This document shows, in pieces, positions 1 to 17,099 of a DNA stretch of 20,864 nucleotides. The position numbers and the translations under genes were made by a program. Below the pieces are notes generated by a model. The model ran no database searches and was not told where the DNA came from. It saw nothing but the letters and a program-made list of their open reading frames with translations. The stretch is taken from positions 1 through 20,864 of the IMG/VR virus record IMGVR_UViG_3300024352_000424, one strand, 5' to 3'. Position 1 is the stretch's first letter, and each line of letters opens with the position of its first letter. Source of the stretch: a virus.

Positions 1-315
1 GAAGCCTTAGAAAAAGCATTAGGAGTTGTAACAACAGCCTGCAAATCTGTAGGAATATCTAGATCAACTCATTATTTATGGATGGAAAATGATCCAGAAT
101 ATCAAAAATTGGTAATTGATCTTCAAGATGTAGCATTAGATTTTGCTGAATCTAGGCTTTTTAAATCTATCGAAGGTGGATCTGATACAGCAACAATTTT
201 TTATTTAAAAACAAAAGGTAAAAGAAGAGGCTATGTCGAAAGGCAGGAGATCACAGGAGCAGACGGCAAGAAAGTTTTTGAAGTCACTATTTTAGATGAC
301 AGCGAAAAGCATTAA
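1..315 (+). CDS. Terminase small subunit, 5' end cut by the window edge
   Basis: The reading frame is open from base 1, so the gene starts upstream; the ATG at 82 is internal. The visible 104 residues begin inside a helix-turn-helix (ALEKALGVVTTACKSVGISR, then STHYLW, about visible residues 2-27), followed by a helical segment and a KTKGKRRGY basic stretch. This is the pattern of small terminase subunits, which recognise phage DNA with an N-terminal helix-turn-helix and deliver it to the large subunit at the portal. The position agrees: its last 20 bases overlap the start of the large terminase gene. Parts of it are AT-rich (16 G+C in bases 61-120), lower than much of the window. The family is assigned from motif and context; the exact subfamily is not clear. 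Confidence 0.82.
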   Translation, partial: EALEKALGVVTTACKSVGISRSTHYLWMENDPEYQKLVIDLQDVALDFAESRLFKSIEGGSDTATIFYLKTKGKRRGYVERQEITGADGKKVFEVTILDDSEKH

Positions 316-1456
316 GACAAATAAAGTATTTAGGCACCTAGAAACTAGCAAAGCTAAGATAATAGTAGAGCAAGGTGGAACTAGATCAGGGAAGACCTAC
401 AATATCCTTCTTTGGATCATTTTTTCATATTGCGAAAAGAACACAGGGAAGATCATCACTATCTGTAGAAAGACATTCCCTGCTTTGAGGGGTACTGTCA
501 TGCGTGACTTCCTGCAAATCCTCAAGGATCATGAGATCTACTCAGAGGATCTGCACTCAAAGACAGCAAACGAATACAGGCTAAATGGCAATGTAGTAGA
601 ATTCATATCCCTTGATATGCCTCAGAAAATCAGGGGTAGAAAGAGGGACTTGCTATTTGCAAATGAGGCCAATGAACTAAGTCAGGAAGATTGGCAGCAG
701 CTACTTTTCAGAACGAATGAGAAGGTGATCCTAGACTATAACCCTTCAGAAGAATTCCATTGGATCTATGACCAAGTACTGACTAGATCGGATGTAGAAT
801 TCTATCAGACCACCTACAAAGACAACCCCTTCCTGGGGGATGTAATCAAGCAAGAGATTGAAAGACTCAAGGAGATAGATGAAAACTATTGGAGAGTCTA
901 TGGCCTTGGAGAAAGGGGACAAAGCAGAAGCCTTGTGTACACCTTCCAAACTTGTAAGGAGATACCAAAGGAGGCAAAACTAGTTTCCTATGGGCTTGAC
1001 TTCGGATTCTCAAATGATCCTACATCTTTGGTAAGAACCTATCTTCTAGGTGATGATATGTACACAGAAGAACTGATCTACCGAACAGGCATGACCAATC
1101 AGGACATAGCCAATGAGATGAAGGTGCTAGGCCTAGATAGAGCCACCGAGATCTTTGCAGATTCAGCAGAGCCTAAAAGCATTGAGGAGATCTATCGAAT
1201 GGGGTGGAATGTAAAGCCTACCATCAAGGGAAGCATCAATCTAGGGATAGACACTATCAGGAGGCATAGGCTTCATGTAATGGAAGGCAGTTTCAACATG
1301 ATCAAGGAACTCAGAAACTACAAGTATATAGAGGATAAAAACGGGCAGATCACCAATAAGCCTGTAGACAATTTCAACCATGCCTTGGATGCACTCAGGT
1401 ATTCGGTGGTGAATAAGATCACGAACAGCCACCTTGGGAAGTACTCTTTCAGATAA
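296..1456 (+). CDS. Terminase large subunit (packaging ATPase and nuclease)
   Basis: A 386-residue motor protein that drives DNA into the procapsid with an N-terminal ATPase and cuts concatemers with a C-terminal RNase H-like nuclease. The Walker A motif is GGTRSGKT at residues 27-34. The Walker B region is RDLLFANEANEL, with the probable catalytic glutamate E124; the usual preceding aspartate is asparagine here (N123), a variant I associate with this terminase group. The nuclease acidic triad is seen as D235 (GLDFGFSNDP), D289 (FADSAEP) and D365 (NHALDALRYS). All motifs are in the expected order and the length is slightly short of the usual 400-550. The start overlaps the small subunit by 20 bases, so the two are probably translated together. 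The portal does not follow, which is unusual. Confidence 0.95.
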   Translation: MTAKSIKTNKVFRHLETSKAKIIVEQGGTRSGKTYNILLWIIFSYCEKNTGKIITICRKTFPALRGTVMRDFLQILKDHEIYSEDLHSKTANEYRLNGNVVEFISLDMPQKIRGRKRDLLFANEANELSQEDWQQLLFRTNEKVILDYNPSEEFHWIYDQVLTRSDVEFYQTTYKDNPFLGDVIKQEIERLKEIDENYWRVYGLGERGQSRSLVYTFQTCKEIPKEAKLVSYGLDFGFSNDPTSLVRTYLLGDDMYTEELIYRTGMTNQDIANEMKVLGLDRATEIFADSAEPKSIEEIYRMGWNVKPTIKGSINLGIDTIRRHRLHVMEGSFNMIKELRNYKYIEDKNGQITNKPVDNFNHALDALRYSVVNKITNSHLGKYSFR

Positions 1457-1488: not shown

Positions 1489-2097
1489 ATGTGGGATAAA
1501 CTTACAGTAGGTCAATTCATCAGCATCTATGATATCGAATTAAATGCGAATTTGAATATCATTGAGAAGCAACAGAAGATGCTTTCCATTGTGGAGGGGA
1601 AGCCTGAAAGCTACTATGACAATTTCAAGTACAGAGACTTGATCAGCGAATACGGGGAGAAACTTTCTTTCTTTGACAATATGCCTGAAGCGAAGCCTGT
1701 GGACTTCTTGCAGGTAGGGGATAAGCGGTACAAGTTTGTGCATGAATTGCACGAGATCACAGCAGGTCAGTACATTGATATCCTAGCATTCAGTGGGGAG
1801 ATCATGCAGTTGAATAAGATAGCTGCCTGTTTCTTTCTACCTATGGAAGGCAAGAGATATCAGCCATATGGGAAGATTCCTCATGATGTGGTGGCGGAAG
1901 ATTTGCTAGATGCAAAGTTCCTAGATGTGTACGGGTGTATGCTTTTTTTTTGTCAATTATTCAACGAATTAATAGCAGATACAATAATCTCCTCAATGAC
2001 AAATCAGGAACTAGCGAAGAAGGCAGTGGATTTATGGAGAGATGGGGGTGGGTCTATTCCACTAAGCAGGTGGCAGACTTCCAAAATATTAGCGTAG
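1489..2097 (+). CDS. Probable tail assembly chaperone, short (unshifted) form
   Basis: This 202-residue protein starts MWDKLTVGQFISIYDIEL and has a central ITAGQYIDI segment, like tail assembly chaperones of Bacteroidota siphoviruses as I remember them. Such proteins (lambda G/GT type) bind the tape measure protein and recruit tube subunits. Bases 1943-1951 are nine T, read as Leu-Phe-Phe-Cys; after it this frame continues 49 codons to TAA at 2097. A second frame (-1) is open from 1887 to 2216 and carries a separate conserved-looking C-terminal region, so the gene probably makes two products. The start at 1489 follows a 32-base AT-rich spacer after the terminase. It lies far from the tape measure gene (9233), unlike the usual order. 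Confidence is high for a gene and moderate for the role. Confidence 0.7.
   Translation: MWDKLTVGQFISIYDIELNANLNIIEKQQKMLSIVEGKPESYYDNFKYRDLISEYGEKLSFFDNMPEAKPVDFLQVGDKRYKFVHELHEITAGQYIDILAFSGEIMQLNKIAACFFLPMEGKRYQPYGKIPHDVVAEDLLDAKFLDVYGCMLFFCQLFNELIADTIISSMTNQELAKKAVDLWRDGGGSIPLSRWQTSKILA
1944..1950 (+). promoter_or_regulatory. Slippery heptamer T TTT TTT, candidate -1 ribosomal frameshift site
   Basis: In the frame of the 1489 gene, bases 1944-1950 read T-TTT-TTT inside a run of nine T (1943-1951). This fits the X-XXY-YYZ rule for tandem -1 slippage, and both tRNAs re-pair perfectly after slipping. The target frame is open past this point to 2216. I did not identify a clear downstream stimulator stem or pseudoknot. 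The run is also long enough for polymerase slippage, which would give the same products at the mRNA level. Confidence 0.6.
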
Positions 2098-2216
2098 CAC
2101 AAGCCTTTGATTTGGCAGTAGTAGAGTACCTGAATACATTGGCATATTTAAAAGATTATAACAAGGACAAAGAATTACAATATAAAAAATGGTCGTTGCA
2201 AAACAAGATAAAGTAG
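1950..2216 (+). CDS. Probable -1 frameshift extension of the tail assembly chaperone (long form)
   Basis: The -1 frame relative to the upstream gene is open from 1887 to the stop at 2214-2216. If ribosomes slip at T9, the fusion is 154 residues of the first frame plus 88 of this one, about 242 in total. The extension contains FMERWGWVYSTKQ and then AVVEYLNTLAYLKDYNKDKE. A WGW motif followed by a helix ending in a 'YLxYxKD'-like pattern is what I recall from the C-terminal half of chaperones in related phages. No good independent start exists (only a GTG at 1935 just before the T run), which argues for fusion rather than a separate gene. Alternatives are a later slip at the G5 run near 2044, or a true one-base indel. 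The extension overlaps the next gene's start (2189) by 28 bases. Confidence 0.62.
   Translation: MSIIQRINSRYNNLLNDKSGTSEEGSGFMERWGWVYSTKQVADFQNISVAQAFDLAVVEYLNTLAYLKDYNKDKELQYKKWSLQNKIK
2043..2049 (+). promoter_or_regulatory. Alternative, weaker slippery sequence T GGG GGT
   Basis: Within the stretch where both chaperone frames are open, bases 2044-2048 are five G, read GGG GGT in the unshifted frame. A -1 slip here would join DLWRDGG to WVYSTKQ and would also reach the stop at 2216. Re-pairing in the P site would need a mismatch (GGG to TGG), and the slip would lose the FMERWGW part of the extension, so I rate it below the T9 site. Confidence 0.25.
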
Positions 2217-2848
2217 ATGGATTGATCAATGTAGGAGGCTACAGGCTAAAAGGAAATGAACTTGTAGTAAAGGCTGAAGAGATACTTCTTCAGAACATTG
2301 AATCTGCTTTGTTTAGGCTAGGACTTAGACTTGCTGATAATCTTGAGATGAATGCACCAATGGGTGCTACAGGGAAACTCAAGTCTACATTTGGTCAGCC
2401 TGTAATTAGAGAAACAAAAACAGGGTATAGTATTGAGATTAAAACTGATGCATACTACTTTGACTATATAGATAAAGGGGTGAGGGGTGTTGATCATGAA
2501 TTGAAAAACAAAAAGGTATACCCAAATGCTAAAGGTAAATTTTACCAATTTGAAACCTACTTCATGCCTCCTAAAGCCTTGAAGGAATTAGAGGGATGGA
2601 TGCAAAGAAAGAATATAGAAGTAGAAGCAAGGAATATGAGAATATCAGCAGGGGATGAAAAGTTGAGGGGTAGAAGGATGCTTCCACAGATTTCTAGTTC
2701 AGCCCAAAGAATGGCCTACTACATCAAGAAGTATGGTATAGCAGGAACTAATTTTATTCAAAAATCCATAGACCAAGCCAAACCTGAATTTGACATAGAC
2801 ATTCAAACAATAGGGGCAGATTCCCTTGTTTTAAAAGTAAGAAAATGA
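2189..2848 (+). CDS. HK97 gp10-like tail completion / head-tail joining protein
   Basis: This 219-residue protein has the layout of gp10-like neck proteins: an N-terminal helix with ADNLEMNAPMGATGKLKSTF (about 50-70), where basic and helical parts precede a 'P...TGxLxxS'-like turn, then a strand pair with YYFDYIDKGVRG, and a C-terminal helix ending in a GIAGTNFIQKSID motif. Proteins of this family sit at the head-tail junction and help finish the tail. The ATG at 2189 lies in an A-rich context (tataaaaaatgg) and overlaps the frameshifted chaperone end by 28 bases. The last four bases (ATGA) overlap the next gene, suggesting coupled translation. The family is assigned from memory of pattern, so the role is moderately sure. 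Confidence 0.68.
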   Translation: MVVAKQDKVDGLINVGGYRLKGNELVVKAEEILLQNIESALFRLGLRLADNLEMNAPMGATGKLKSTFGQPVIRETKTGYSIEIKTDAYYFDYIDKGVRGVDHELKNKKVYPNAKGKFYQFETYFMPPKALKELEGWMQRKNIEVEARNMRISAGDEKLRGRRMLPQISSSAQRMAYYIKKYGIAGTNFIQKSIDQAKPEFDIDIQTIGADSLVLKVRK

Positions 2849-9232: not shown

Positions 9233-11443
9233 ATGGCTGAAGAAAATAAAATCATTTTAGATGCGGATGTTAAACCACTTAAGAAACAATTAAGGGAAGC
9301 GACACAGGAATTACAAGTAGCACGGCAGAGATTCGGTGAGTTCTCTGATGAGGCGGTACAGGCTGCCCAAAAGGTGGCTACTATTCGTGACAGCATTGAA
9401 GATGCAAATGAGGCAGCACAGCTATTTGATCCAGGGAAGAGATTTCAGGCATTGACTACGGCAGCCTCCACAGCAGCAGGAGGAATTGCAGCAGTTCAAG
9501 GTGCAATGGCTTTATTCGGATCTGAATCACAGGATGTAGAGAAAGCACTCCTAAAAGTTCAGTCTGCAATGGCCTTATCTCAAGGCCTTTCTCAGTTGAA
9601 AGATATTGGAAAGGTAGGTGATCAGTTAAGCATCACTTTCAAAGGCCTTACAGCAGGTGCAAACGGCTTTAAAAAGGCTTTGATCACTACAGGTATCGGT
9701 GCTTTGGTAGTAGCTGTAGGCCTTCTAGTAGCCTATTGGGAAGACATCATGGCCTTGGTAGGTGGTGTAAGCAAAGAGCAGAAAGACTTGAATGCAGATA
9801 CCTTAAAAGACCTAGAAGCACAGAAGGAAAAACTTGATGCAATTGATGGCCAAACCAATCAGCTAAAACTTCAGGGCAAATCTGAAAAGGAAATCCTTGA
9901 CTTGAAAATAGCCCAAACAGATGAGGCTATCAGGGCAGCGGAGATAAACCTTCAGAATGCACAGGCTACCAAGGACGCACAGGTACAAGCAGCGGAAAGA
10001 AATAAAGCAATTCTTGCAGGTCTATTGAAGTTCATGTCATTCCCATTGACAGCAATCCTTGGGAGCATTGACTTAATCACAAAAGGATTGAGTGCTATTG
10101 GTGTATTAGAGGAATCTACTTCTTTACTAGATCAAAGCACTAATTACCTTGCATCTTTTGTCTTTGATCCTGAAGCAGTAGGTGAAGCAGGTGATGCTAC
10201 TATCAAGGAAGCACAGGCAGGACTAGATAGATTGAAAGAGCAAAGAGCAGGATTTACACTATCCCAACAGGAAGCGGAAAAGGCAGCAGGTGAAAAGTCA
10301 GCAGCGGAAAGAGAAAAACAGGCTAAGGCAGAAGAGGAAGCACTTGCTATTTTACAGGAGGCAAAGAATAAAATGGAGGAGCAGCAGGTACAGGATAGAC
10401 TTGCCGTAGAAAAATCTTACCAAGAAAAATTTGCTAAGTTAAGAGAAGCAGGGATCGAGGATGACGGCAGTCTTGCAGAAGCGCAGAGAAGAGATCTTCA
10501 AGCGATTGATGACAAATACAACAAGGAGAATGCTGAGAAAGAGGCTGAATTCCAAAAGCAATTAAATGAGATCCGGACTCAGATTAGGCTTGAAGGTATT
10601 GTGGATGAAAACGAAAAAGCAAGAGAGCAGATCCTAATCGAGTTTGAAAAGCAGAGACAGGAGATACTTGAGAATGAGAAATTCACAGCGGAACAGAAAA
10701 CTGCACTCGTATTGGAGTTAGCCCAACAAGAGCAACAATCACTTGCAGCACTTCAGTTAACCATTGATCAACAAAAGGCTGCGGAGGATCTAGCGGAACT
10801 TGAAAGAGAGATGGCACAGGCTGATCTATCATTCCAAATTCAAAGGGATTTGCTAGATCAAAAGGAAGCACTTTTAACAGAGCAATTAGAAGCAGGTCTT
10901 ATTACAGAAAAAGCCTATACGGAGGCGATCAGGGAAAATGTCGATGCAAGGATAGAGTTGGATAAGAAGGAAGCAGATGCTAAGTTGGAAAACGCTGCCC
11001 GGGTATCCGGTCTACTTGCCGGAATATCCGATCTAGTTGGGAAGAATACTGCTGCCGGTAAAGCGACTGCTATTGCAGCAACAACTATTGACACTTATCT
11101 TGGGGCGCAAAAGGCTTATGCTTCTCAGTTAATACCCGGAGATCCATCTTCCCCTATAAGGGCTGCCATTGCTGCTGCAATCGCTGTTGCCGGTGGTATA
11201 AAAAATGTTAGGGCGATCGTACGAACTCCTGTTCCCGGTGGAAAAGGTGGTGCATCTGCACCGGACATTTCTGCTGCTGCACCACAGGTGGCTTCTGCTG
11301 TACCTACATTGGGTTCAAGCCCTGTTACAGCACTTGGTCAGGCTATGCAGAATCAACCTCCACTTAGGGCTTATGTGGTAGAAAGCGAAGTTACCGGTAC
11401 TCAGAAGAGGGTAGCGGATATTGAACGAAGAGCAGGTTTTTAA
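9233..11443 (+). CDS. Tail tape measure protein
   Basis: A 736-residue, largely alpha-helical protein with few strands predicted by eye. The N-terminal part (1-110) is helical and alanine/glutamine-rich. Hydrophobic segments lie at about 149-170 (ALITTGIGALVVAVGLLVAY) and 262-295, followed by long charged heptad-like helices from about 350 to 600 rich in E, K, Q and A. The end is low in charge and rich in Ala, Gly and Pro. This layout is that of tape measure proteins, which set tail length and pass through the tube during infection; by the family rule of about 0.15 nm per residue the tail would be near 110 nm. The gene is not next to the chaperone (1489), contrary to common practice. Its last 460 bases have a different base usage (nine CCGG sites), suggesting exchange. 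Confidence 0.88.
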   Translation: MAEENKIILDADVKPLKKQLREATQELQVARQRFGEFSDEAVQAAQKVATIRDSIEDANEAAQLFDPGKRFQALTTAASTAAGGIAAVQGAMALFGSESQDVEKALLKVQSAMALSQGLSQLKDIGKVGDQLSITFKGLTAGANGFKKALITTGIGALVVAVGLLVAYWEDIMALVGGVSKEQKDLNADTLKDLEAQKEKLDAIDGQTNQLKLQGKSEKEILDLKIAQTDEAIRAAEINLQNAQATKDAQVQAAERNKAILAGLLKFMSFPLTAILGSIDLITKGLSAIGVLEESTSLLDQSTNYLASFVFDPEAVGEAGDATIKEAQAGLDRLKEQRAGFTLSQQEAEKAAGEKSAAEREKQAKAEEEALAILQEAKNKMEEQQVQDRLAVEKSYQEKFAKLREAGIEDDGSLAEAQRRDLQAIDDKYNKENAEKEAEFQKQLNEIRTQIRLEGIVDENEKAREQILIEFEKQRQEILENEKFTAEQKTALVLELAQQEQQSLAALQLTIDQQKAAEDLAELEREMAQADLSFQIQRDLLDQKEALLTEQLEAGLITEKAYTEAIRENVDARIELDKKEADAKLENAARVSGLLAGISDLVGKNTAAGKATAIAATTIDTYLGAQKAYASQLIPGDPSSPIRAAIAAAIAVAGGIKNVRAIVRTPVPGGKGGASAPDISAAAPQVASAVPTLGSSPVTALGQAMQNQPPLRAYVVESEVTGTQKRVADIERRAGF

Positions 11444-14127: not shown

Positions 14128-14631
14128 ATGCCTTGTGCCTTAACTCAAAATTATACCCTTGACTGCAAAGATTCTCTTGGTGGTTTGAAGGAAGTATACT
14201 TTGCAGCAGTAGAGGATGTGGCTTCTTGGACAGGTTCAAATGGCACTTTCACAGGTGTCACTATGGATGCTAACAAGTATTTTTGGAAGTACGATCTTGT
14301 AAAAGAATCTTCCAACTTTGCTGAAGCAGTCAATACCAATGTTCAGAATGGCACAGTATTCTATGCTCAAACTATTGAAATCATCCTTAACAAATTACAA
14401 GTAAACACCCGAAATGAGATCCTTCTACTTGCTAAGAATAGACTCGTAGCAATCGTGAAAGATAACAATGACAAGTTTTGGGTACTTGGTAAGGATAACG
14501 GCCTAGATCTTACAGGTGGCGGATCTGCTACAGGTACTGCCTTCGGTGATCGTAATGGCTACACATTGACCTTCACAGGCAATGAGAAAGAACTAGCACC
14601 ACTATTCACAGGAGTTCCTCCTTTGGATTAA
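14128..14631 (+). CDS. Probable major tail tube protein
   Basis: A 167-residue protein, beta-rich, starting MPCALTQNYTLDCKDSLGGLKE. A central helix (ILNKLQVNTRNEILLLAKNR) is followed by LVAIVKDNNDKFWVLGKDNG and a C-terminal SATGTAFGDRNGYTLTFTG segment. This combination is one I recall from small abundant virion proteins of Bacteroidota phages located next to the capsid gene, usually taken as tail tube or tail subunit. A tube protein is otherwise missing from the window, which supports the call. It sits between two hairpins, the second a strong terminator directly after its stop, so it may be expressed as its own transcript or at high level. It could instead be a head decoration protein. Confidence 0.55.
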   Translation: MPCALTQNYTLDCKDSLGGLKEVYFAAVEDVASWTGSNGTFTGVTMDANKYFWKYDLVKESSNFAEAVNTNVQNGTVFYAQTIEIILNKLQVNTRNEILLLAKNRLVAIVKDNNDKFWVLGKDNGLDLTGGGSATGTAFGDRNGYTLTFTGNEKELAPLFTGVPPLD

Positions 14632-14654
14632 ATATTTGGTTTGTAGTTTATGTG

Positions 14655-14687
14655 AAAAGCACCTTCCTAGTGGAGGTGTTTTTTTTT
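14655..14687 (+). terminator. Strong Rho-independent terminator
   Basis: An A-rich entry (AAAA, 14655-14658) leads into the stem GCACCTTCC pairing with GGAGGTGT, with one bulged T, one G-U pair and a 4-base loop TAGT, and then a run of nine T (14679-14687). This is the classical form of an intrinsic terminator on the + strand, 23 bases after the stop of the tail-tube-like gene. It is the best terminator in the window and splits the late region into two parts, so a promoter or read-through is needed for the portal and lysis genes; I saw no clear promoter in the 34 bases before the next start. Confidence 0.85.
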
Positions 14688-14721: not shown

Positions 14722-15081
14722 ATGGTTATTATTCAAAAAGGAGAAGCGAGTACTATCTATATTGCCCTATTCGATAAGAGGCAAACGAGCAGCAACACCT
14801 ATACCTTCCTATTTCAGCATGAGGTGACAAAGGAAGAAGTGACCTTAAACCTTACAGATGTGAGTCAATTTAAAGATAGATACTCAGAATTCAATATCCT
14901 ACTAGCATCTTTTCAGAATAGCACTGTAGGCTTTTGGCGGTACTATGTAACTCAGGCAGGAAGTGGTGCAAATATTATAGCCACAGGCAAAATGGAATTG
15001 ACAGCACCAAACCTAAGTACTTCAGGAGTGGTCAGATATGACGGCTACAATGGAAACTACAAAACATACACAACAGCATGA
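14722..15081 (+). CDS. Small structural protein of unknown role
   Basis: I chose the ATG at 14722 (MVIIQKGEASTIYIALFDKR) because an upstream in-frame start at 14686 would lie in the terminator T run. The 119 residues look like a single beta-sandwich: QTSSNTYTFLFQHEVTKEEV, NLTDVSQFKDRYSEFNI, then FWRYYVTQAGSG and KMELTAPN near the end. Similar proteins with a VIIxKGxAxTIxxxL start occur among head-tail genes in Bacteroidota phages in my memory, but without known function. The stop overlaps the portal start (ATGA, 15078-15081), so the two are probably coupled, which points to a head or neck component. Confidence 0.72.
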   Translation: MVIIQKGEASTIYIALFDKRQTSSNTYTFLFQHEVTKEEVTLNLTDVSQFKDRYSEFNILLASFQNSTVGFWRYYVTQAGSGANIIATGKMELTAPNLSTSGVVRYDGYNGNYKTYTTA

Positions 15082-17099
15082 TAAAGTTTTTCAAATTTGA
15101 CCAAGTACCCCTACCTATTTACAAGGAAGTAAAAGGAAAGGATTGGATATACTATGGGGAAAGAAATGACTATCCAAACTACCTACTAAGAATCTACAAT
15201 AATTCAGCAAAGCATAACGCTATTGTTACAGGTAAGGTAGACTATATCTGTGGGAATGGATGGGATGTGAAGTCTGATGATCTGATGGAGAAAGCCAAGG
15301 CTTATGGATTAATTGACAAGGTCAATTCATCTGAAGAATCCTTGAATGAGTTAACTAAAAAGATAACCACAGATTTGACCATATTTGGAGGCTACTATCT
15401 TCAGGTGATTTGGACAAAGGCAACGGGTGAGATTGCAGAACTCTATCATGTAGACTACTACAAGGTCAGAACGAACCTAGACAATAGTGAATTCTATGTA
15501 TCCGACAATTGGATCAAGAATGATAATGTCAACCCAAGACCTGATTTTGAGACATTCCCTGCCTTCGATCCAAACAATAGAACAGGATCACAAATTCTCT
15601 ACTTCAAAGAATACAGAGCAGGTGCAAATACCTATTCCCTTCCTGACTACAGAGGTGCGATCTCCTACATTGAACTAGATATCTCTATAGGTGAATACCA
15701 CCTGAACACTATAAACAATGGGATGTTCTCAAGCAAGTTGATCAACTTGAATGGGGGTAAGGTATCCCAGGAAGAAGAGGATAGAATCGAAAGACAATTC
15801 AAAGACAAATTCTCAGGGTCTAAGAATGCAGGGAAATTCATGTTGGCATTCAATGACAGCAAAGAGAATGAGCCTTCAATAGTAGACCTATCAGGTACTG
15901 AATTGGACAAGCATTTTGACCTTTTGAATAAGACTGTACAGCAGGAGATTTTCTCAGGTCATAAGGTGACAAGCCCTATGCTTTTTGGTGTGAAGACTGA
16001 AGGGCAACTAGGCGGTAGAGCGGAACTCAGAGAAGCATCTGAACTATTCCAAAACACCTATGTGAACGCAAAACAGCGAAGCCTAGAAGAGACCATCAAT
16101 TATTTGTACAAGTTCAATGATGTTACGGCAAAGCTAGAACTTAGAAAGACTGAGCCTATCAACTTTGAATTCTCTGAGGCTATCATTTCTGCAAATATGA
16201 CACAGGAAGAGATCAGAGAAAAACTAGGTCTTTCTCCAATTGAGAAGAAGGAATCAGCAGGATCACAGGACATCATTAACTCTTTGAACAGCCTTTCTCC
16301 TTTGATTGCTACCAAGGTAGTTGAATCAATGGATGTGAACGAATTGCGTGGCCTTATTGGGCTTCCAATCAAAGCAGACATAGTCACACCTACGGCAATC
16401 AATGAAGCCCCTGTAGGAGAGCCTAATGCCTTCCATGACCACAAGCACCTGACCTGTTCAATCTCTGATCATGATGCTGAGATCCTCAAGAAGTTTGAAG
16501 GCAAAGGATTGTCTAGAGATAAATTCAAAATCCTAGAAAGCAATAAGATGTTCTTCAGCAGCATGGATGAGTTTGTGAAAGAAGAACTCTTCGCAGAATA
16601 CATCTTGAATGAGGTGCAAAGAAATATCTTGAAGCAGATTCAGAATGATCCTGCGGTAACAATCCCACAGATTGCAGAAGCTACAGGAATTGATGAAGCA
16701 TCAGTCATTGGAAGAATCAACACCTTGATAGATGACAATGTGATTGAAGAAAAGATTGACAGGGTAGGTCAAGTGACTCGTAAAGTTACCCGGACAGGTG
16801 AAGCAGCAATCAAAAGACTTCAACCTGTGACTTCCTTCCGAGTGCTTTACTCCTATGAGGAACGCAAGAATGTACCTGCTGCAAAAAGCGGAAGCAGACC
16901 TTTGTGTGATAAGTTGTATCAAGATGGAAACAGCCTTCTATTCACACGGGAAGAGATTCAAAACATCTCCAATCAACTAGGATACTCTGTATTCCAACTT
17001 TGTGGGGGATGGTATAGAAATCCAAATACAGGCAGAACTACCCCATACTGCCGACATGAGTGGGTTCGTAATGTAGTAATTGAAAAGACATCAAGATGA
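15078..17099 (+). CDS. Portal protein with winged-helix-like insert and MuF-like C-terminal domain
   Basis: A 673-residue protein, long for a portal (usually 400-550). The first 460 residues have portal features: an N-terminal KDWIYYGERNDYPNYLLRIY segment, an early HNAIVTGKVDYICGNG region, long central helices, and a helix with QQEIFSGHKVTSPMLFGVKT (about 288-307) typical of this portal family. Residues 505-580 look like a winged helix-turn-helix (NEVQRNILKQIQ, VTIPQIAEATGIDEASVIGR, then a basic wing with QVTRKVTRTG). Residues 600-673 hold SRPLCDKLY (C610) and TPYCRHEWV (C658, H660), the pattern of the MuF head-morphogenesis C-terminus. Portals form the dodecameric DNA entry ring. The extra domains may link portal with minor head functions. 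It overlaps both neighbours by four bases. Confidence 0.85.
   Translation: MIKFFKFDQVPLPIYKEVKGKDWIYYGERNDYPNYLLRIYNNSAKHNAIVTGKVDYICGNGWDVKSDDLMEKAKAYGLIDKVNSSEESLNELTKKITTDLTIFGGYYLQVIWTKATGEIAELYHVDYYKVRTNLDNSEFYVSDNWIKNDNVNPRPDFETFPAFDPNNRTGSQILYFKEYRAGANTYSLPDYRGAISYIELDISIGEYHLNTINNGMFSSKLINLNGGKVSQEEEDRIERQFKDKFSGSKNAGKFMLAFNDSKENEPSIVDLSGTELDKHFDLLNKTVQQEIFSGHKVTSPMLFGVKTEGQLGGRAELREASELFQNTYVNAKQRSLEETINYLYKFNDVTAKLELRKTEPINFEFSEAIISANMTQEEIREKLGLSPIEKKESAGSQDIINSLNSLSPLIATKVVESMDVNELRGLIGLPIKADIVTPTAINEAPVGEPNAFHDHKHLTCSISDHDAEILKKFEGKGLSRDKFKILESNKMFFSSMDEFVKEELFAEYILNEVQRNILKQIQNDPAVTIPQIAEATGIDEASVIGRINTLIDDNVIEEKIDRVGQVTRKVTRTGEAAIKRLQPVTSFRVLYSYEERKNVPAAKSGSRPLCDKLYQDGNSLLFTREEIQNISNQLGYSVFQLCGGWYRNPNTGRTTPYCRHEWVRNVVIEKTSR

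Follow-up and report, generated by a model that had tools for sequence, protein, structure and literature searches.

The gene that follows the terminase large subunit gene in the window (the whole 20,864-nt stretch of viral DNA analysed here, positions 1 to 20,864 of IMG/VR record IMGVR_UViG_3300024352_000424) very probably gives rise to two products, a short protein and a longer protein extended in a shifted frame, through a programmed frame transition at a run of nine T's (T9), which we regard as near-certain. Standard decoding of positions 1489-2097 would give the short form of 202 residues, and a fraction of the expression events would slip to the -1 frame at T9, giving a form of 242 residues of which the last 88 make up a domain conserved in its own right. 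The slip appears to be programmed, as T9 is kept across a superfamily of Bacteroidota-type tailed phages whose main clades are only ~17-25% identical. The complete reading, i.e. a programmed slip, two products and a candidate pair of tail assembly chaperones, has in our estimate a probability of about 0.8; that both proteins are synthesized, their ratio, the machine that slips and their role are what we infer from the sequences.

Organization of the two reading frames

The features of the gene and its neighbours are listed in Table 1. A previous sequence-only reading of the window had described two frames overlapping without stops from 1887 to 2097, a T-TTT-TTT heptamer at 1944-1950 in the upstream frame, a -1 frame continuing to 2216, and products of 202 and about 242 residues. 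The ORF coordinates agree exactly with this description, the heptamer is found within the nine-T run at 1943-1951, and translation returns products of 202 and 242 aa, the latter by reading 1489-1950 and then the -1 frame from 1950. At the junction, the codons are CTT TTT TTT TGT in the 0 frame and GCT TTT TTT TTG TCA in the -1 frame. The -1-frame C-terminal domain contains the motifs RWGW and EYLNTLAYLKD. The AlphaFold model of the 202-aa short form is helical, with a mean pLDDT of 79.8, and that of the T-like -1 domain is poor (pLDDT 54).

Table 1. Positions of the frameshift gene, its predicted products and neighbouring genes in the window.
Feature	Position	Strand	Basis
Terminase large subunit (TerL), directly upstream	296..1456	+	phrog_6672, E 8e-29
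0-frame ORF, short (G-like) product, 202 aa	1489..2097	+	75-100% identity in 80 IMG/VR loci
Predicted fusion product, 242 aa	1489..2216	+	Inferred by translation
-1 frame, open, overlapping the 0 frame up to 2097	1887..2216	+	ORF list, homologue alignment
T9, putative slippage run	1943..1951	+	Invariant in window-type loci; T9 or T10 in distant homologues covering the site
In-frame heptamer T TTT TTT	1944..1950	+	Phase identical across window-type loci
Position silent for both frames (TTT/TTC, TTG/CTG)	1950..1950	+	T in 60/60 non-redundant sequences
-1-frame C-terminal (T-like) domain, 88 residues past the shift	1950..2216	+	Homologue of the P12024L -1 domain, hhalign E 6.8e-12
Next gene, weakly HK97-gp10-like; begins before the -1 frame ends	2189..2848	+	Pfam PF04883, E 0.012 (sub-threshold)
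Tail length tape measure protein	9233..11443	+	phrog_24676, E 1.1e-20

Conservation of the nine-T run in close relatives

With the 202-aa protein as query, IMG/VR yielded 80 loci with identities of 75-100%, making 81 window-type loci together with the window. T9 is present in all 81 and always in the same phase. Nearly all of these loci share the offset of the -1 stop (728), and the end of the 0 frame is variable, giving short forms of 159 to 210 residues. Two of the 81 loci are exceptions, L056, whose -1 frame is interrupted by a stop, and L013, with a 0-frame stop just past the run. A second search was seeded by the -1 domain alone and is thus free of bias from the FF codons; T9 and the same frame offset were found in 155/155 records with both halves, a set that overlaps with the 81 loci. 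In addition, a pattern scan permitting T6-T12 gave at least 92 family matches, with T9 in every one listed, and the eight other matches among those listed were unrelated sequences. Elsewhere in the same loci, T runs of nine or more number only 26 in 1.79 Mb.

The proposal of a -1 frame transition at T9 with two conserved products is thus strongly supported by the homologue comparison, in which the T run (81/81 and 155/155) and both reading frames proved to be conserved and in which neither homologues with one continuous frame nor copies with eight or ten T's that alter the frame were found. The sequence-only reading had named a one-base indel in the homopolymer, real or introduced by sequencing, as the main competing explanation. 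Homopolymers are indeed error-prone, and the two halves of the gene are annotated as separate ORFs in phage P12024L (see below); however, 80 other, independent contigs and one phage isolate have the same T9, which excludes such an indel, and selection acts on both frames. Sequencing or assembly error, or decay of the gene by a single homopolymer indel, is therefore hardly credible.

Distant homologues

When the AlphaFold short-form model was compared with models of viral proteins, fold matches with E down to 2e-12 were obtained, one of them to a protein of 175 residues from Nonlabens phage P12024S. The matching gene of P12024L, gp40, is located directly 3' of the terminase gene and carries ACTTTTTTTTTATC, including T9, at the homologous place; past the run, the -1 frame of P12024L encodes a KWGW motif and then enters the annotated gp41. 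The gp40-gp41 pair of P12024L/S (Nonlabens/Persicivirga phage) is thus a true homologue, with T9 at the same place and both domains homologous, but it shares only ~17-25% identity with the window gene, and its annotation lists the halves as two hypothetical proteins and mentions no frameshift. The short form of P12024L/S belongs to phrog_32199, which is matched by 12 of 12 sampled members of the P12024L-type clade and weakly by the window protein (E 0.017), and phrog_38404 covers the end of the -1 domain. In clade-versus-clade profile comparisons (hhalign), the short forms match with E 1.4e-10 and 17% identity, and the -1 domains with E 6.8e-12 and 25% identity.

With gp40 and two related proteins as queries, 63, 80 and 54 loci were obtained, with some contigs repeated. 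The distant homologues number ~190 loci besides P12024L, mostly with 25-57% identity to their own queries. T9 or T10 together with the -1-frame domain was found in 62/62 loci of the gp40 query and, for the two relatives, in 128/128 loci scored plus three by hand; three distant loci stop short of the site. The W-G-W motif of the -1 C-terminal domain is common to the distant homologues. Two scans of GTDB bacterial contigs detected no homologue, and the search of a phage genome collection found homologues only in Nonlabens phages.

Long homopolymers in coding regions are often a sign of phase-variable genes, so the run might be a contingency tract at which changes in DNA length toggle the long form. 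This is most improbable, since no frame-changing length variant occurs in the 81 + 62 + 128 loci or among the matches listed by the T6-T12 scan, and since the T10 copies retain the frame relation, the neighbouring base being different and the gene length unchanged.

Nor is it probable that the two halves are separate proteins, the -1 ORF being started by itself near the run through reinitiation or coupling, an explanation to which we assign only a very small chance. The sequence-only reading had held that the -1 frame has no proper start. This needs some qualification for the window, where GTG occurs in the -1 ORF at 1935 and TTG inside the shift site, and gp41 of P12024L has been annotated from a downstream ATG. 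The statement does apply to 34 of 39 distinct P12024L-type sites, which lack ATG, GTG and TTG from the upstream -1 stop to 60 nt past the start of the run, and 55 of 90 further distinct sites lack them too; nevertheless, the -1 frame of these sites has a conserved FFLSFRER. Many relatives have a -1-frame stop just 5' of the run. A separate start would moreover leave T9 unexplained.

Two further candidates were rejected. Bacteroides phage BT50 has a like gene order with a 213-aa single-frame gene after TerL, and profile comparison revealed homology to neither domain. In Flavobacterium phage 6H, gp10 gave a weak fold match (TM 0.34) and is followed by a -1-frame ORF; it was left out because the -1 frame has a stop right after the T-rich site and a clean slip site was not seen. 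The region of 6H (10044-10927) consists of gp10 and then an unannotated ORF of 105 codons in the -1 frame, and the gp10 profile, phrog_25418, has 293 positions, as though its relatives had a single continuous frame. The region may hold either an unrecognised shift site or an indel.

In some of the distant relatives (L281, 3880-3950; L289, 3154-3983), several hundred bases without a long ORF precede the frameshifted gene, and L281 has a terminator-like hairpin and a T tract upstream of it. The tail module in such relatives may have its own promoter upstream of the frameshifted gene.

Selection on both reading frames

For the analysis of selection, a non-redundant set of 60 sequences (<97% identity) was used. 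No other part of the gene is invariant over as many nucleotides as T9 with the following GTCAA (14 nt), while third codon positions outside this stretch show a mean diversity near 0.4 and Phe codons conserved at other places are a mixture of TTT and TTC, with TTC the commoner. Synonymous diversity of the 0 frame is 0.126 in the overlap versus 0.386 before the site (p 4e-12), and that of the -1 frame is 0.195 in the overlap versus 0.329 past the 0-frame stop (p 0.002). The synonymous-site constraint, the absence of which had been named as evidence against a programmed shift, is thus clearly present, and within the overlap both frames are under purifying selection. When codons were randomised with the -1 peptide fixed, the 0 frame was open across the overlap in ~12% of draws (median), whereas it is actually open in 56 of the 60 sequences; in the reverse simulation, with the 0-frame peptide fixed, the -1 frame was expected to be open in ~4% (median). 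Position 1950 is the sole site of the overlap where a change is usually silent in both frames, and its invariant T, together with the synonymous constraint in both frames, suggests that both products matter to the phage.

Which machine slips

The frame transition might be brought about by RNA polymerase, which would add one U (or drop two) in copying the nine T's, or by the ribosome, which would slip by -1 on U UUU UUU. In the 190 distant-clade loci, the first T of the run occupies codon position 2 in most, position 3 in 14 and position 1 in eight, and ten loci have T10. Since the run is never shorter than nine, an in-frame T TTT TTT exists in every locus in any phase; a ribosomal heptamer, however, requires only seven T's. 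The extra T's on the left and right of the heptamer are 1+1, 0+2, 2+0, 1+2 or 2+1, the sum never being below two. Where a T is lost on the left one is gained on the right, and vice versa, and the length is 9-10 in all three phases. A tree of 62 representatives, in which several deep joins are on long branches and many rows are related, has six changes of run configuration (phase or length), none of them to below nine.

Bacterial RNA polymerase slips efficiently in vivo at nine A or T, and the dnaX gene of Thermus relies on polymerase slippage at nine T (PMC5009743). The known chaperone frameshifts, on the other hand, are ribosomal, and stimulators are often missing in tailed phages (PMC5009743). 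Downstream of the site, single-sequence folds are no more stable than those of shuffled sequences, and the alignment fold has weak energies and no compensatory pairs, indicating no conserved RNA stimulator there; this fits slippage by either machine.

We lean slightly towards polymerase slippage, because at least nine T's are kept in all three codon phases and a heptamer alone would not need nine, while ribosomal -1 slippage is a serious contender. In its pure form, with the ribosome shifting on T TTT TTT and the flanking T's reflecting coding constraint only, the ribosomal explanation is credible though not preferred: the in-frame heptamer is there in all loci, the chaperone precedents are ribosomal and often do without stimulators in tailed phages, and in the (1,1) phase the left T is needed by a hydrophobic codon and the right T by a -1-frame Leu codon. 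It is at odds with the compensating gain and loss of T's, which holds the length at nine or ten. A check of coding constraint showed that in the commonest phase the encoded residues can account for the flanking T's. As these T's are partly fixed by coding, the run-length argument for polymerase slippage is carried by the six changes of phase or length, and given their small number and the related rows, we consider it suggestive. It may be proposed, tentatively, that the superfamily, widespread yet lacking annotation, comprises tail chaperones of Bacteroidota phages that set the ratio of short to long form by polymerase slippage rather than by ribosomal frameshifting, with run length and not phase under selection.

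The dnaX gene of Thermus thermophilus likewise has a conserved nine-T recoding element and yields two products from one gene (PMC5009743). It differs in being a bacterial replication gene, whereas the alternative frame of the window gene is long and encodes a conserved domain; in addition, the slippage in dnaX is transcriptional, whereas in the phage gene polymerase slippage is a candidate mechanism.

Gene neighbourhood and possible role

The gene had been placed just after the terminase and 7 kb before the tape measure gene, and this is its position (the TerL gene extends to 1456, and the ORF of the tape measure begins at 9233). TerL is directly 5' of the gene in 66/66 window-type loci with enough sequence. 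Downstream there follow the weakly HK97-gp10-like gene, other genes of the tail region, a fibre gene, which gave matches to tail fibres, and the tape measure gene; the frameshift gene is the first of the tail module. The order of modules in the window is terminase, tail genes, tape measure, protease, capsid, portal and lysis; Bacteroides phages such as BT50 have the same order without a homologue of the frameshift gene.

We judge it probable that the two products are a tail assembly chaperone pair of the G/GT type. This role is favoured by the frame architecture, the predicted helical short form and the first position in the tail module, and the rest of the 20.9-kb window has no other gene with such a frame arrangement and no other chaperone candidate. 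It is weakened by the distance from the tape measure gene and by the lack of a profile or fold match. Tail chaperone genes usually adjoin the tape-measure gene, whereas the window gene is not located between the major tail protein and tape measure genes, the latter being 7 kb downstream. The gene had no match to the known chaperone profiles in Pfam and PHROGs; a search of the PDB with the short-form model gave no solved-structure match (best Foldseek E 1.6), and VIA-align gave only Z <3.3, to short helical pieces.

These points would also suit a two-product gene of another kind, encoding some other morphogenesis or structural protein, the more so as frameshifts occur in phage capsid and tail-tube genes too. 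Such a role is possible but rather doubtful, considering that the gene stands first in the tail module and the phage has a tape measure, that the short form is predicted to be helical and its extension shows T-domain logic, and that no other gene in the window is similarly arranged.

With lambda G/GT (also HK97 and other siphoviruses), the candidate chaperone gene shares a short product and a -1 extension with a second domain, a strongly conserved slip site, no evident RNA stimulator, and the occurrence in a phage with a tape measure. It differs from lambda G/GT in the slip site (G GGA AAG in lambda, T9 in the window gene), in its position directly after the large terminase and 7 kb before the tape measure, and in its short form of 202 aa, and no sequence or fold match between the two was found. 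In the tail gene E/E' of phage P2, a -1 frameshift likewise occurs at a T-rich site, T TTT TTG; P2 is a myophage, and the run in E/E' is shorter than T9.

Tail-chaperone frameshifts and nine-T slippage in bacteria are both well known; searches of open-licence papers found no description of either type of recoding in this gene family or in phages of Bacteroidota. Through the present analysis, a large family of phage genes, recorded in databases as unknown and in two pieces, would acquire a function-bearing recoding site, and the frame transition would explain why these pieces are separate. Gene callers will overlook the long form in all such phages. If it is the polymerase that slips, a homologous logic, i.e. 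a fixed ratio of two tail chaperones, would be achieved by a different machine, in parallel to dnaX of Thermus versus that of E. coli. The cultured pair of P12024L and Persicivirga sp. IMCC12024 makes the question of slippage directly testable.

Other features of the window

The only other T9 in the window belongs to an element at 14654-14687, where it comes after a hairpin (CACCTTCCTAGTGGAGGTG) 3' of the ORF at 14128-14631; this is an ordinary intrinsic terminator between head genes. The portal ORF (15078-17099, 673 aa) has an extra C-terminal match to a winged helix-turn-helix (PF13412, E 7e-11) beyond the portal domain, which is unusual for a portal.
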